Source of the DNA: a virus
Virus record (IMG/VR): IMGVR_UViG_3300042474_000510
Location: 1-56,370 of that record
Reading direction: 5' to 3' (one strand)
DNA: 56,370 bases
Below the pieces are notes generated by a model. That model saw only the letters and a program-made list of their open reading frames with translations. It did not search any database and was not told the DNA's origin. This document shows positions 6,217 to 35,193 of the stretch, piece by piece. Position numbers and translations under genes: made by a program. Within the stretch, counting starts at the first letter, position 1, and the number at the start of each line of letters is the position of its first letter.

Positions 6217-6353
6217 TATAATCCAAACTTCTTTCTTGACCACGGTGCGTTATGAAAGCAGTCATGATATATCCACCATGTGCCATCATCAAGCGCCTGT
6301 ATAGTCCTGATTGTTTCTCCATGGATATTGATCATGGTTACGATCCTATTCAT
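6216..6353 (-). CDS. Small protein coupled to thyX (45 aa)
   Basis: An ATG at 6353 overlaps the thyX stop (ATGA) and opens 45 codons ending at TAA 6216, which in turn overlaps the next ATG. The translation includes DDGTWWIYHDCFHNAPW, which is unlikely by chance. No family was recognised. Confidence 0.6.
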   Translation of the reverse strand: MNRIVTMINIHGETIRTIQALDDGTWWIYHDCFHNAPWSRKKFGL

Positions 6354-7120
6354 GACCAGAACTTCCACCACCATGATTTAGGTTCTTGTTCTACAACAGA
6401 AGATCTATTCCTTGGAAGCCAGTGATCCTCAAATCTTGGCATGTTAGGATCTAGATCAGGATACCAATACTCTTTCAAAGATGGGAAGTGCATGAGGATT
6501 TCTTTCTGTGCTGCTAGAGCAACCTGACGGTGTTCTTTCTGTGTGCCTTCTTCTGCTCTAACATCAATATAGTGGATAAATGACCTCAACGATCCACTCA
6601 TATACATTTTAGTCTCAATGAGTCCTTCTGGTAATACTGATCTAGCGACTTCTTTGGCAATGCCCATGTCAATAGCAAGTTTATATCCTTTTTCAGCGGC
6701 ACTTCTGATAAGATTTTGCTGCATCTTCCATTGATAATGAACATCGTCATCATCAGTCTCAATACTATTCTGACGGTTTTTATGATCTTGAAGTCTTGCT
6801 TCCCTTGTAACAAAATTCATATCTTGCGTGGGGTCTGCATACCTTTGTGAGAACTCTTGAAAAGTGAATGAACGGTGTCGAAGAATCTGTCTACCGATAT
6901 CTCTTGTGGTTGTAATCTCTAACGTAAGGAAGCAATGTTCCATAGGACTCCAATGTTTATGCTCAATAAGATATTTCATAAGTTTTGGTGCAGTCATCAT
7001 ATTCAACTGATTTGATGGATTGCTTACACGGGCAACATAAACAATATATTCCTCTGGCGTCATACCAGGATAATCTTCTACCATAGGTTTAGTGATTCCA
7101 ACAATCTTCACATTACTCAT
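6350..7120 (-). CDS. thyX: Flavin-dependent thymidylate synthase ThyX
   Basis: The 256-residue protein methylates dUMP to dTMP using FAD, NADPH and methylene-tetrahydrofolate. The ThyX motif RHRSFTFQEFSQRY sits at 81-94, and the N-terminal block ARVSNPSNQ plus HKHWSPMEH is intact. C-terminal residues RSFIHYIDVR and the EHRQVA helix also match the family. It works with NrdJ in one leftward operon. Its ATG overlaps the stop of the HNH gene upstream (ATGA). A truncated second ThyX lies at 8884-9093. Confidence 0.95.
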   Translation of the reverse strand: MSNVKIVGITKPMVEDYPGMTPEEYIVYVARVSNPSNQLNMMTAPKLMKYLIEHKHWSPMEHCFLTLEITTTRDIGRQILRHRSFTFQEFSQRYADPTQDMNFVTREARLQDHKNRQNSIETDDDDVHYQWKMQQNLIRSAAEKGYKLAIDMGIAKEVARSVLPEGLIETKMYMSGSLRSFIHYIDVRAEEGTQKEHRQVALAAQKEILMHFPSLKEYWYPDLDPNMPRFEDHWLPRNRSSVVEQEPKSWWWKFWS

Positions 7121-7887
7121 TTTCTCTTCCTTCTAGTCATTCCTTTAGAGAACCCCTCTGGTATTTCGGCATCTATACTTAGAAAGATATTCTTATCTCC
7201 ATCAGTATAGCATACTCTGCCTTTAGTATTACCATCGGAGTTTTCAAACTTCTGTTTCATCTTTTGTCTTATCTTGTCCTTACGTTCTTCGTTTTTTTCA
7301 TCGGAAAGGTTGAACATAGGATTATATATCTTACATCTTTCGCTTCTATCCGATCGTTCCTCGTCGGTCAAGTTCAAAACTTTACCTTTACCTGCCGCAC
7401 TTATTGAGTCTTTTATCTGTTGTGCTTTATCTTCACCATATAATTCTTCATAGGTTTTACCAGTCATAGACTTGTTTCGTTCAATAACTGCTATTCTGTT
7501 CTTTTCTCTGGATTTCTCTAACTGGAACGGATGCCTACCATCTTTTGAAAGTTCTAATTGAGTCTTACTAGAGATTTCCGATCTTTGTTCTGTTGTTAGA
7601 GAGATATGACCTGTAACAGACATGGCCCAACAGGCACCATAATCTCCTTGCGAGTAGTGAATATCATAGTGTTCTTTTGCCGAAACACATTGAAGATTGT
7701 CTATGTGATTATTGGAATGATTACCGTCAATATGATGTATATGATAACCCTTCGGTATTGGACCGAAATGTTGCTCGTATAGACGGCGATAAATAGACAT
7801 GCTGGCACTCCTAAACAGTGTTAGAGTAGGCGGGACTGGTACTCCGTGGCCTACAACTCTATTTAGTAAATCAGCACTTTCAGTCAT
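7117..7887 (-). CDS. HNH homing endonuclease with NUMOD-like repeats
   Basis: The catalytic block HIHHIDGNHSNNHIDNLQ is a textbook HNH motif, preceded by SIYRRLYEQHFGPIPKGY. Downstream are repeated basic segments (DGRHPFQLEKS, YNPMFNL) like NUMOD3 DNA-binding modules, and a C-terminal YTDGDKNIFLSIDAEIPEGF module seen in phage endonucleases. Two starts have good ribosome sites. One is ATG 7887 (AAGGA, MTESAD), which overlaps the upstream gene by eight bases. The other is ATG 7801 (AGGAG), which begins exactly at the HNH family start SIYRR. The N-terminal 29 residues may be leftover sequence fused in frame. Its stop overlaps the thyX start, so the endonuclease is wedged directly before thyX. 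Confidence 0.85.
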   Translation of the reverse strand: MTESADLLNRVVGHGVPVPPTLTLFRSASMSIYRRLYEQHFGPIPKGYHIHHIDGNHSNNHIDNLQCVSAKEHYDIHYSQGDYGACWAMSVTGHISLTTEQRSEISSKTQLELSKDGRHPFQLEKSREKNRIAVIERNKSMTGKTYEELYGEDKAQQIKDSISAAGKGKVLNLTDEERSDRSERCKIYNPMFNLSDEKNEERKDKIRQKMKQKFENSDGNTKGRVCYTDGDKNIFLSIDAEIPEGFSKGMTRRKRK

Positions 7888-8077
7888 CTTGTTTCCTTCC
7901 TTTCCAAAAAAGATATATCTCATCGGAAATTACGGTGTCCATACCCCAAACATCTACTTCTGCTTTTATAGATTTTGGTAGTTGAGAAGTGTAGATTTCC
8001 ATAAGTTCTTCATCGGTTCTCAATTTACCATCACATTCATAAAGAATGTCATGTAACCGTTCTACATCAATGCTCAT
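7880..8077 (-). CDS. Small protein, unknown function
   Basis: The ATG at 8077 overlaps the stop of the preceding gene (ATGA) and gives 65 residues, SIDVERLHDILYECDGKL and so on to WKGRKQDD. An upstream ATG at 8092 is possible. No domain is recognised. Confidence 0.6.
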   Translation of the reverse strand: MSIDVERLHDILYECDGKLRTDEELMEIYTSQLPKSIKAEVDVWGMDTVISDEIYLFWKGRKQDD

Positions 8078-24866: not shown

Positions 24867-25041
24867 CCATAACCTCCTTCATAACTCTACGGATCTCTTC
24901 AACCAACACCTTACTACACACAGCACAATCTGGTTGCCAATTCATCATATTCAAAACCAGTCTTTCGTTTGGTTCATGAACAAATTGAATAGCATCCCTA
25001 ATTTTTTCAGTGGTTATTTCGTTACAAGAACATACGATCAA
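24856..25041 (-). CDS. Bfd-like [2Fe-2S] ferredoxin
   Basis: The 61-residue protein has C4 and C6 (VCSCNE) and C39 and C42 (DCAVC), the CxC…CxxC ligand set of bacterioferritin-associated ferredoxin. Bfd reduces bacterioferritin cores to release stored iron. The start is a TTG that overlaps the HNH gene stop (TTGA). A link to the phage Dps is inference: Bfd partners normally with haem-bearing bacterioferritin and not Dps. Confidence 0.8.
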   Translation of the reverse strand: MIVCSCNEITTEKIRDAIQFVHEPNERLVLNMMNWQPDCAVCSKVLVEEIRRVMKEVMDGA

Positions 25042-25598
25042 CTTTGTTTCCTCTCTTTACATTTATCAAAATGATATCTATACATACTATTGCTTTTTCC
25101 AACCTTTCCGCAGTGAGGACATTTATGTATTTTTTGAGTATGATGATTGCCTTCTTTTATTAATTTTAAATGAGCGTTTCTTTGCACATTCCCGCCAATT
25201 AAAGGATGTAATCCATTTTCTATCATTTTTCTGTTATGTTCAGAGCCTCTTTCTCCAGAAAAATGATGTTTTCCATTTTTAGATGCTATTTTCATAGGAT
25301 TACTGTTTCCTATGAAATGATGCTTACCAGACTTTATCCTATCGGCTTGAACTTTTTTAGATAGTTCTGATAATTGTTCTGAAGACATTTTCATCTTTCT
25401 AGACAGCAACCAACAAGCACCCCAATCTCCTTGAGAATGATGTATATTGTAATGTTCTTGAATAGAAAGAGCAATTAAATTTGAAGGGTCGTTGTTTTTA
25501 TCATTTCCATCAATATGGTGAATATCATAAGTTCTACCGTCCTCATCTTTAGGAATAGGACCATAATATTGTTCGTAAATACGACGATAAATACGCAT
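25038..25598 (-). CDS. HNH homing endonuclease
   Basis: The 186-residue protein begins RIYRRIYEQYYGPIPKDEDG with the catalytic IHHIDGNDKNNDPSNL, then EHYNIHHSQGDWGACW, all matching the HNH gene at 7117. NUMOD3-like repeats (KHHFIGNSNPM, KHHFSGERGS) follow. A C-terminal zinc finger (CPHCGKVG…HFDKC) replaces the other copy's tail. It is likely a free-standing homing endonuclease inserted between replication genes and the Bfd-like gene. The ribosome site GGGAG and the upstream leader resemble those of the 7117 copy. Confidence 0.87.
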   Translation of the reverse strand: MRIYRRIYEQYYGPIPKDEDGRTYDIHHIDGNDKNNDPSNLIALSIQEHYNIHHSQGDWGACWLLSRKMKMSSEQLSELSKKVQADRIKSGKHHFIGNSNPMKIASKNGKHHFSGERGSEHNRKMIENGLHPLIGGNVQRNAHLKLIKEGNHHTQKIHKCPHCGKVGKSNSMYRYHFDKCKERKQS

Positions 25599-33536: not shown

Positions 33537-33986
33537 TTAAACGATGTTAACTTTTTTAGGTTTCTTTTCCTCTGGAATCATATTTTCCAGATAGATCTTC
33601 AAAATACCATTGAGCATTTCTGCGTTTTTCACTTCAACGCTATCGGCAAGAGTAAATTTGCGTGTGAATACACGATCCGCAATACCCTTATAGATATATT
33701 GTAGTGGATTGATTGTAGCATCAGCCATATCGTTAACTGTCATACCACCTTTAACGACTAATACGTTATTGGCGAGTTCAATGTCAATATTTTGTTTGCC
33801 GAAACCTGCAACAGCCATTTCAATAGTATAATTGTTGTCGTCAACTTTCACGATATTATATGGAGGCCAATTTTGGGCTGCTGCTTTTGCGTAGGTATCT
33901 TGTACAGAATTCAAGGTATCTAGAACCTTATCAAAGCCTACAAGATATTTGTTGAAGTTGTTAAATGCAAATGGATCGTTTGTCAT
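33537..33986 (-). CDS. hsp20: Small heat-shock protein Hsp20 / IbpA-like
   Basis: The 149-residue protein has an alpha-crystallin domain (about 42-135): YNIVKVDDNNYTIEMAVAGF, NNVLVVKGG, VFTRKFTLADSVEV and the closing NGILKIYLE. ATP-independent holdases of this kind are frequent in T4-like phages. It is the next gene downstream of pmoC and has its own promoter in between. In cyanophages hsp20 commonly lies near psbA, so a role in protecting the labile metabolic enzyme is a reasonable inference. Confidence 0.93.
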   Translation of the reverse strand: MTNDPFAFNNFNKYLVGFDKVLDTLNSVQDTYAKAAAQNWPPYNIVKVDDNNYTIEMAVAGFGKQNIDIELANNVLVVKGGMTVNDMADATINPLQYIYKGIADRVFTRKFTLADSVEVKNAEMLNGILKIYLENMIPEEKKPKKVNIV

Positions 33987-34006
33987 AGTTATCTCCTTTT
34001 AAGCGA

Positions 34007-34039
34007 GAAAAATAATCAGCGTTCCAATCAGGCAACGCT
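34007..34039 (-). terminator. Terminator-like hairpin in the hsp20 leader
   Basis: On the minus strand AGCGTT and AACGCT (ten-base loop) pair and are followed by GATTATTTTTC. It lies between the promoter at 34044-34073 and the hsp20 start, so it could attenuate transcription. The stem is short, and the call is weak. Confidence 0.35.
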
Positions 34040-34043
34040 TCAT

Positions 34044-34073
34044 ATTATATAGTAATTGTGAGGGGGAAGTCAA
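34044..34073 (-). promoter_or_regulatory. Sigma70-like promoter for hsp20
   Basis: On the minus strand TTGACT (34068-34073) and TATAAT (34044-34049) are 18 bases apart and point into hsp20. This gives hsp20 an expression route independent of pmoC. Confidence 0.65.
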
Positions 34074-34086
34074 TACCTCCCCCTCA
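34059..34086. repeat. 9-bp inverted repeat after pmoC
   Basis: TGAGGGGGA (34059-34067) and TCCCCCTCA (34078-34086) form a perfect 9-bp stem. The T-run (34089-34097) lies on the plus-strand side, so it is a proper terminator only for rightward transcripts. For pmoC mRNA it is a strong 3' hairpin without a U-tract. Its loop carries the -35 element of the hsp20 promoter. Confidence 0.65.
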
Positions 34087-34095
34087 ACTTTTTTT

Positions 34096-34860
34096 TTATT
34101 CTGTTAGAAGTGCTACGCCTTCACGCCCTAGCAAAGCATGAACACGTCCTAGAATTTGGAGAACAACGCCGAACACACCAAGTGCCATCCAGCCAAAGAA
34201 CACGAAGCCCCAATGCAATGGTGCTACGAATAGTTCTTCCATGAACCAGAAAGTATGACCCCATTCGTTGAGACCAACGTTTGGAATGATCATAAATGGT
34301 CCAATAGCTACAATCAAGAATGCAAGGCTGTATCCATGTGAGAAGTATGGAATACGGGTTCTTGCATAGAAGAAAGCACCTACTGCAATTACGCTATAGA
34401 TTGGATATGACATGTAGAATTCAATGATGTGACTTGGAGTAAAGTCAGTATCACGAATAACAGTCATATGCCATGTACCATCCTGTTCAGTAAAGAAGGA
34501 TGCGCCCCAATAAATGGCAGCAGCATACACAACAAGCCACTGAACAAGAACTACTAGACGACGCATTTCCTCACGAGGAGCTACGGCGTCAATGTCACGA
34601 TCTCTCGTCTTCCAAAGATAACCAGCAAGTGCTAGTCCTGAGACTAACTCAAGCGGAATCTCCGTCCAGAGAATAGACATCCAATATGTCTGAAACTCGG
34701 GTGCAAATGAGTCAAGACCAGCCCTCCAGCCGAATACCTGCTCATAGATTCTGACGATTAGATAGAATGTGTTTAGAAGCGCAAGGCCAATCCACATTCC
34801 ACGGAGATCAACGACATCTGACTTTGCTGCGACTGCAGCGGTTGTAGTTACTGTACTCAT
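34096..34860 (-). CDS. pmoC: Particulate methane monooxygenase subunit C (PmoC)
   Basis: The 254-residue protein is a complete PmoC, a multi-helix inner-membrane subunit of copper-dependent methane monooxygenase, which oxidises methane to methanol. All known metal ligands are kept. The first set is D127, H131 and H144 (in EQDGTWHM and FTPSH). The second set is N198, H202 and H216 (in GLNEWGH and PLHWG). The N-terminus VDLRGMWIGLALLNTFYLIV and C-terminus GREGVALLTE are intact. No pmoA or pmoB is present in the window, so the product must enter host PmoA/PmoB complexes. GGAG lies six bases before the ATG, and a late octamer lies upstream (34936-34943). GC content is higher than in neighbours (29 of 60 in 34141-34200 against 19 of 60 in 33541-33600). 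From memory the closest relatives are Methylocystis/Methylosinus. Confidence 0.96.
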   Translation of the reverse strand: MSTVTTTAAVAAKSDVVDLRGMWIGLALLNTFYLIVRIYEQVFGWRAGLDSFAPEFQTYWMSILWTEIPLELVSGLALAGYLWKTRDRDIDAVAPREEMRRLVVLVQWLVVYAAAIYWGASFFTEQDGTWHMTVIRDTDFTPSHIIEFYMSYPIYSVIAVGAFFYARTRIPYFSHGYSLAFLIVAIGPFMIIPNVGLNEWGHTFWFMEELFVAPLHWGFVFFGWMALGVFGVVLQILGRVHALLGREGVALLTE

Positions 34861-34908
34861 ATATTATTCTCCATAGAGAAAAAAATCAAGTGGTCAGTTT
34901 CGCCTTTG

Positions 34909-34926
34909 GTGACGGTGAACCGCCAC
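34909..34926 (-). promoter_or_regulatory. Hairpin in the pmoC 5' leader
   Basis: On the minus strand GTGGCGG, TTCA and CCGTCAC form a 7-bp stem with one G-U pair. It lies between the late octamer and the pmoC ATG. It would only pair fully in the pmoC-sense RNA, because the plus strand has an A-C mismatch. It may stabilise or regulate the mRNA. Confidence 0.4.
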
Positions 34927-34935
34927 TCTTGGTGT

Positions 34936-34943
34936 TATTTATA
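34936..34943 (-). promoter_or_regulatory. T4-type late promoter octamer upstream of pmoC
   Basis: The minus strand reads TATAAATA (GTATAGTATAAATAACACC in context) 75 bases before the pmoC ATG. An exact octamer in the only sizeable gap of this region suggests pmoC is a late gene. Confidence 0.65.
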
Positions 34944-34971
34944 CTATACCTCTATTGAAAAGTCAACTGGC

Positions 34972-35193
34972 TTAGTTAAGTTTTTTTCCGAAAGTTTCTT
35001 TGGCTGTGCAAAGAATATCCATATTTCTTCTGTCAAGAATGAATATTGGAGTCATATTCGCTGCTCTATATTCTTCTGCAACTTTAAGAACAGTTCTAAG
35101 ACCGCTCTCTTCGTCTTCTGGAATAAAAGAAGCTGCTGCTATAACAACGTTTTCTGGAACTTCGACTAAATCTTGTAGGTTTAATTTTTTCAT
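34972..35193 (-). CDS. Small protein upstream of pmoC
   Basis: The 73-residue protein (KKLNLQDLVEVPENVVIAAA, then EYRAANMTPIFILDRRNMDI) looks like a compact alpha/beta protein, but no family is recognised. It overlaps the upstream gene's stop. Confidence 0.6.
   Translation of the reverse strand: MKKLNLQDLVEVPENVVIAAASFIPEDEESGLRTVLKVAEEYRAANMTPIFILDRRNMDILCTAKETFGKKLN

Follow-up and report, generated by a model that had tools for sequence, protein, structure and literature searches.

Stand-alone pmoC genes in phages of freshwater lakes were first reported in 2020 (Chen et al., Nat Microbiol, PMC7674155), and 25 viral pmoC genes have been reported (PMC10904782). The phages described by Chen et al. 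are large T4-like myoviruses that carry pmoC with no pmoA or pmoB, they encode an alpha-type PmoC close to that of Methylocystis, hsp20 often adjoins the gene, and a smaller group among them has genomes of 159–174 kb with 35–44% GC (PMC7674155). The locus analysed here is the same in all these respects. It differs in that both the CuC and the CuD ligands can be assigned, whereas the CuC trio alone was reported; the paper contains no mention of promoter, leader, untranslated or selection, and no genome in its Table 1 equals the length of about 168,874 bp that we deduce below, LR_1 being 168,581 bp long (PMC7674155). The amoC gene of Thaumarchaeota viruses, as cited in the same paper, is also a C subunit carried alone from a copper membrane monooxygenase, but the hosts are archaeal, the process is ammonia oxidation and the virus is unrelated (cited in PMC7674155). 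As stand-alone phage pmoC was known already (PMC7674155), and from freshwater, as the initial annotation of this DNA had stated, the gene in itself adds one more example. Phage pmoC could alter lake methane release.

The psbA gene of T4-like cyanophages likewise encodes a subunit of host energy metabolism and is under purifying selection in T4-like phages, and replacement of the fast-turning-over host subunit has experimental support. That support for turnover and replacement belongs to psbA; for phage PmoC both would be putative. Lambdoid morons are genes inserted between phage genes, with their own promoter and a flanking hairpin, and they have relatives in which the site is empty. The pmoC unit also has its own predicted promoter, a flanking hairpin and an empty site in related phages, but its promoter appears to be a sigma-70/late composite, it belongs to a T4-like phage and it includes a long conserved leader. 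Hairpins that stabilise the 5′ end or control translation exist in bacterial and T4 mRNAs, and the pmoC message would similarly have one hairpin near its predicted 5′ end and a small one over the Shine-Dalgarno sequence, with the difference that the leader sequence is specific to pmoC and matches no described RNA family of Rfam at gathering score. What the locus offers beyond Chen et al. is a putative composite promoter, a pmoC-specific foldable leader and central deletions that keep the leader. No description of such a gene-specific leader or composite promoter was found in the openly accessible papers that were read.

The window, that is, the whole stretch of DNA analysed, is a virus record of 56,370 bases. 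The pmoC unit and its neighbours comprise the following features.

34972–35193, minus strand: gene for a 73-aa phage hypothetical protein, left neighbour of the pmoC unit, which adjoins hsp20 directly in pmoC-free relatives
34961–34966, minus strand: sigma-70-like -35 box TTGACT, separated by 17 nt from the late-promoter TATAAA (from the sequence and -35 counts)
34936–34943, minus strand: putative T4-type late promoter TATAAATA, doubling as -10 (same octamer before structural genes; gp55 homologue)
34885–34930, minus strand: conserved pmoC leader AAGAGTGG...GACCACTTGAT, foldable as an extended hairpin (pattern searches, predicted folds)
34867–34880, minus strand: small predicted hairpin TTCTC-TATG-GAGAA over the Shine-Dalgarno GGAG
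34096–34860, minus strand, including the stop codon: pmoC, 254 aa (open reading frame, PF04896 profile, structure relatives, ligand positions)
34059–34086, minus strand: strong 12-bp hairpin just past the pmoC stop codon (MFE -22.2 kcal/mol, z -3.9)
34044–34073, minus strand: sigma-70-like promoter of hsp20, TTGACT-18-TATAAT (from the sequence)
33537–33986, minus strand: hsp20, small heat-shock protein (phrog_432), right neighbour of the pmoC unit

The pmoC reading frame has 254 codons, starts with ATG and is preceded by a GGAG Shine-Dalgarno sequence (34869–34872); a plus-strand reading of 34096–34860 was ruled out by its many stops. Its product matches PF04896 (AmoC/PmoC) with 358 bits, the cut-off being 26.7, over positions 6–244 of 245 and hence in full length. 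The nearest solved structures are the Methylocystis-type PmoC chains 3rfr and 4phz (E ~1e-158 and 6e-156), which align approximately from end to end. In the M. capsulatus structures, CuC is bound by Asp156, His160 and His173 and CuD by Asn227, His231 and His245 (PMC12576850). With an offset of 29, the phage residues D127, H131 and H144 correspond to the first set and N198, H202 and H216 to the second; each is found exactly where the initial annotation had placed it, in a PmoC that is full-length as claimed. Its remark that pmoA and pmoB are absent from the window also holds: a search of the window and of every pmoC viral locus that was fetched gave no match to PmoA or PmoB (of the longer contig G001, described below, it covered all but ~112 kb). 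Among phage PmoCs of 200 residues or more, all 52 distinct sequences retain the six ligands; the set was picked by length and similarity, and decayed copies are for that reason under-sampled in it. Judged by its length and ligands, the phage PmoC is a complete subunit that should be able to bind copper. No pmoC was found in isolated phages among 50,697 phage records. A bacterial contig (L161) encodes a divergent PmoC-like protein with two changed CuC ligands (D to T, H to N).

Upstream of pmoC, the arrangement TTGACT-17-TATAAATA occupies positions 34966 to 34936. The T4 late consensus is quoted as TATAAAT (in PMC3037559). In the same phage, the octamer TATAAATA is also found before the genes for tail sheath, head scaffold, major capsid/head protein and tail tube, and a gp55-type late sigma factor is encoded (phrog_234, E 6.7e-52; 43% identity to T4 gp55). 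A -35 match of at least 5/6 at a distance of 16–18 nt was present at 17 of 32 distinct pmoC TATAAATA sites versus 6 of 113 other TATAAATA sites. This higher frequency of a -35-like hexamer before pmoC suggests a composite promoter, used by both the host-type and the late polymerase. At the other end of the unit, the hairpin at 34059–34086 is not followed by a U-run and overlaps the -35 of the hsp20 promoter. The TATATAAT of the latter is also found before hsp20 at most of the pmoC-free sites examined. The hsp20 gene has a conserved leader hairpin of its own, the loop of which reads TGCCTRATGG, and its start codon is preceded by CTCGCTTAA-AGGAG (33987–34049; also in the pmoC-free contigs L309–L316 and L322–L324).

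The conserved pmoC leader, which would begin approximately at the late transcription start, was read in 18 versions before intact or deleted pmoC. Its specificity was assessed by searching IMG/VR, a collection of 2.9 million virus contigs, with the strict pattern AAGAGTGG-N-GACCACTTGAT; a looser pattern, TATAAATA plus AAGAGTGG, was discarded as too unspecific. The strict pattern is present in 45 contigs. In 43 of these, pmoC starts 21–29 nt downstream, and the other two occurrences are without promoter and look like chance. The pattern occurs once in the window, and a covariance model of the leader matched the pmoC copy alone in the phage genome. The leader is missing from the empty site, that is, from 15 Hsp20 contigs (e.g. 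L309–L316) in which the 73-aa gene is followed by hsp20 without pmoC, and it is still present in two contigs (L043, L019) that have pmoC at other genome positions. No match was obtained in 11 methanotroph genomes or in the fetched host loci, and inheritance from a host was ruled out on these grounds. The leader can serve as a DNA tag by which pmoC-phages are recognised even when contigs are short.

Predicted folds of the leader consist of one extended hairpin. The pmoC leaders of all pmoC-phage types (n = 31) have a median MFE of -16.1 kcal/mol and a z of -2.1, as compared with -5.8 kcal/mol and +0.26 for the other TATAAATA leaders of the same contigs (n = 49); the p-value of 5e-9 for this comparison, as any computed over leaders or contigs, overstates independence because distinct leaders and contigs share descent. 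A general late-gene leader was ruled out, taking into account both the weak folding of these other leaders and the single copy in window and genome. A T-rich stretch after the leader had prompted a terminator or attenuator reading, which was rejected, the stretch being interrupted in many versions. In a bistable reading, GTGG would have two possible partners, GTCAC close by and CCAC farther away; in unconstrained folding the long-range hairpin has the lowest predicted energy in nearly all versions, a result that speaks neither for nor against this reading.

The leader likely acts as RNA. That it is instead a site acting at the level of DNA, or flanking sequence inherited together with the gene, and not a regulator of pmoC, we regard as unlikely, though well worth weighing. 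Seventeen arm positions are invariant or nearly so, as a protein-binding inverted repeat would be, and the outer arms offer no covariation evidence because of this near invariance, no two-sided change having been seen. The antisense strand moreover folds nearly as well as the sense strand, the difference being weak (p 0.06). The same arms, however, stand before a gene whose synonymous sites are heavily diverged, and shuffling the inner part with the arms fixed makes the fold worse (mean z -2.5). One inner pair, formed in only part of the sequences, varies as C-G, U-A and U-G, and its change from C-G to U-A may count against a DNA site; the location of the leader downstream of the promoter, within the predicted transcript, and its absence from pmoC-free sites and from the 11 methanotroph genomes do so as well. 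We would put at somewhat short of even the chance that the leader belongs to a new cis-acting RNA family of phages that serves a single metabolic gene, moves with pmoC from one genome position to another and controls its message, which may be by protection of the 5′ end, by an effect on translation or by sensing (of copper or of the energy state).

Other pmoC-phages have other leaders. A different structured leader, GACCRGGYAWCCTATCCYGGA, was found in 10 IMG/VR contigs, every one of them a pmoC-phage, and in some pmoC-phages of the gamma type TATAAATA is followed by hairpins of other kinds. If the cis-acting RNA family proposed above is real, these different structured leaders in the same place would mean that dedicated RNA control evolved more than once. 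Six contigs (L024, L027, L040, L046, L053 and L054) show a second structured leader upstream of pmoC, with CTAAATA replacing TATAAATA; just upstream of it lies an inverted repeat whose arms co-vary, and it includes a block, GACCGGG..CCCGG..CCGGTC, that can pair in two ways, each excluding the other.

At least 117 stretches resembling pmoC are present in IMG/VR. A quick tree of broad scope places the alpha-type phage PmoCs inside the Methylocystis branch; in a more careful one, built from 58 Methylocystis/Methylosinus-type rows, 34 alpha-phage PmoCs lie on one side of a single branch (support 89/56, modest). This grouping, with its modest support, allows a single acquisition of alpha-phage pmoC followed by spread among phages. 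By the Nei-Gojobori method, dN/dS was 0.063 relative to the nearest phage allele and ranged from 0.02 to 0.14 among the 34 alpha-type phage PmoCs (median pairwise value ~0.065–0.067). The bacterial PmoC set gave a higher median, 0.115. Values of dS often exceeded 0.5 and were saturated in the phage-versus-bacteria comparison. Intact phage pmoC is under strong purifying selection. Nesting within Methylocystaceae and purifying selection had both been named beforehand as support, and both were obtained: the PmoC of the window groups with phage PmoCs inside the Methylocystis branch, and the median pairwise dN/dS is ~0.065. GC3 is 0.38 in phage pmoC versus 0.75–0.79 in hosts, and this low value, taken with synonymous sites that are saturated relative to the closest bacterial genes, shows that pmoC has long resided in phages. 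Purifying selection, retention of the ligands in 52/52 sequences, the putative composite promoter and the gene-specific leader argue for a maintained, regulated function.

We favour, with moderate confidence, an explanation in which pmoC forms a moron-like unit with a composite promoter and a folded leader, its product joining the host complex. A T4-like phage of a Methylocystis-type methanotroph would carry pmoC as a moron, i.e., a gene unit complete in itself. The same -10 would probably be used first by the sigma-70 polymerase of the host and at a later stage by the gp55-type late polymerase, and the mRNA would begin with the conserved folded leader of ~46 nt, whose most likely role is to protect the 5′ end, to tune translation or both, sensing being no more than conceivable. 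Extra PmoC would be made late, perhaps from early on. Most likely it would enter the host membrane and form complexes with the PmoA and PmoB of the host, in place of or in addition to host PmoC, at a time when expression of host genes is declining, and methane oxidation and energy supply would thereby last through virion production. Replacement of the host subunit in existing complexes, the role that the initial annotation had proposed by analogy with psbA, is plausible from the sequence data. In situ, phage pmoC was among the most expressed genes, along with structural genes, in other, larger phages; three smaller (159–168 kb) pmoC-phages of Lake Rotsee had few RNA reads (PMC7674155).

Phage PmoC might also act as the orphan PmoC copies of hosts do, supplying extra protein that serves assembly, repair or the handling of copper when cells are stressed, a role that we hold to be rather improbable but far from negligible. 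Many methanotroph genomes have a pmoC without pmoA within the fetched 3 kb flanks, and the parallel with additional pmoC copies was raised by Chen et al. (PMC7674155). The bacterial PmoCs nearest to the phage protein (L082, L083, L087) nevertheless sit beside pmoA, and several without nearby pmoA (L101, L104, L105) are more distant, at ~77% identity. This case against an orphan-like role is weak, because some pmoA-less copies are identical to the operon copy (L084, L086).

A central deletion of pmoC that eliminates all ligands, with promoter, leader and both gene ends kept, was found in 8 of 43 leader-bearing contigs. Five contigs (L208, L285, L287, L288, L291) have a 37-codon broken-frame allele, and three (L281, L282, L289) have a 52-codon frame in which the first ~37 residues are joined in phase to the last ~15. 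Both deletions start after ...YLIVR and are two separate events; assembly error is unlikely, since identical junctions recur in contigs of several data sets. Chen et al. also reported, in 2020, that part of one population had lost the centre of the gene and that pmoC was in fragments or incomplete in several phages (PMC7674155). Repeated loss of this kind is what would be expected if pmoC were a passenger in the course of being lost, a gene that was acquired, was neutral or of short-lived use, and decays again and again. We consider this improbable, and clearly more so than the orphan-like role, as dN/dS is so low at a dS often above 0.5 and as six of six ligands persist in all of the 52 distinct near-complete sequences, even if decayed copies are under-sampled in that set. 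Ligand loss accompanied by dN/dS near 1 in close relatives had been named beforehand as evidence that would count against the replacement role. The loss does occur, but dN/dS of the intact copies is far below 1. The deletions and the low dN/dS together indicate that purifying selection acts on pmoC where the gene is intact, although some lineages can dispense with it. The central deletions are natural loss-of-function alleles, ready for comparison with intact ones. The printed stretches of L281 and L282, ~330 nt long, are identical except for several changes in the leader loop, one of which keeps a pair (U-A to U-G).

The window is 100% identical to IMGVR_UViG_3300042317_000390 (L004 = G001, 168,653 bp). 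Its positions 1–2425 correspond to the end of that contig and 2647–56370 to the start, and positions 2426–2646 bridge the two with 221 bases missing from G001. As the window joins both ends, the genome would measure ~168,874 bp and be circularly permuted or circular as assembled. Genes in the window encode a T4-type DNA polymerase, a UvsX-like recombinase, a DnaB-like helicase, a primase, ribonucleotide reductase, thymidylate synthase, a virion protein, an endolysin and Hsp20. Tail sheath, major head protein, gp55 and gp43, together with a size of ~168.9 kb, are features of a large T4-like myovirus. When isolated phages are compared, the DNA polymerase is closest to those of marine viruses and of Synechococcus T4-like phages, at ~50% identity. 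Transfer RNAs were the sole RNA-family matches in the window (Rfam, gathering score). That the window is bacterial DNA wrongly called viral has next to no probability: its PmoC is 95% identical to Methylocystis PmoC over residues 16–254, but phage replication, structural and lysis genes lie all around it, the GC content is 40%, the gene order is common to many contigs and the T4 core genes belong to a 168.9-kb genome, which bears out the phage origin and excludes placement in a bacterial chromosome. At 6350–7923 the thymidylate synthase gene is accompanied by an HNH intron-like endonuclease gene, with a 4-base overlap on its upstream side, and a second HNH endonuclease gene lies at 25038–25598, near the DnaB gene.
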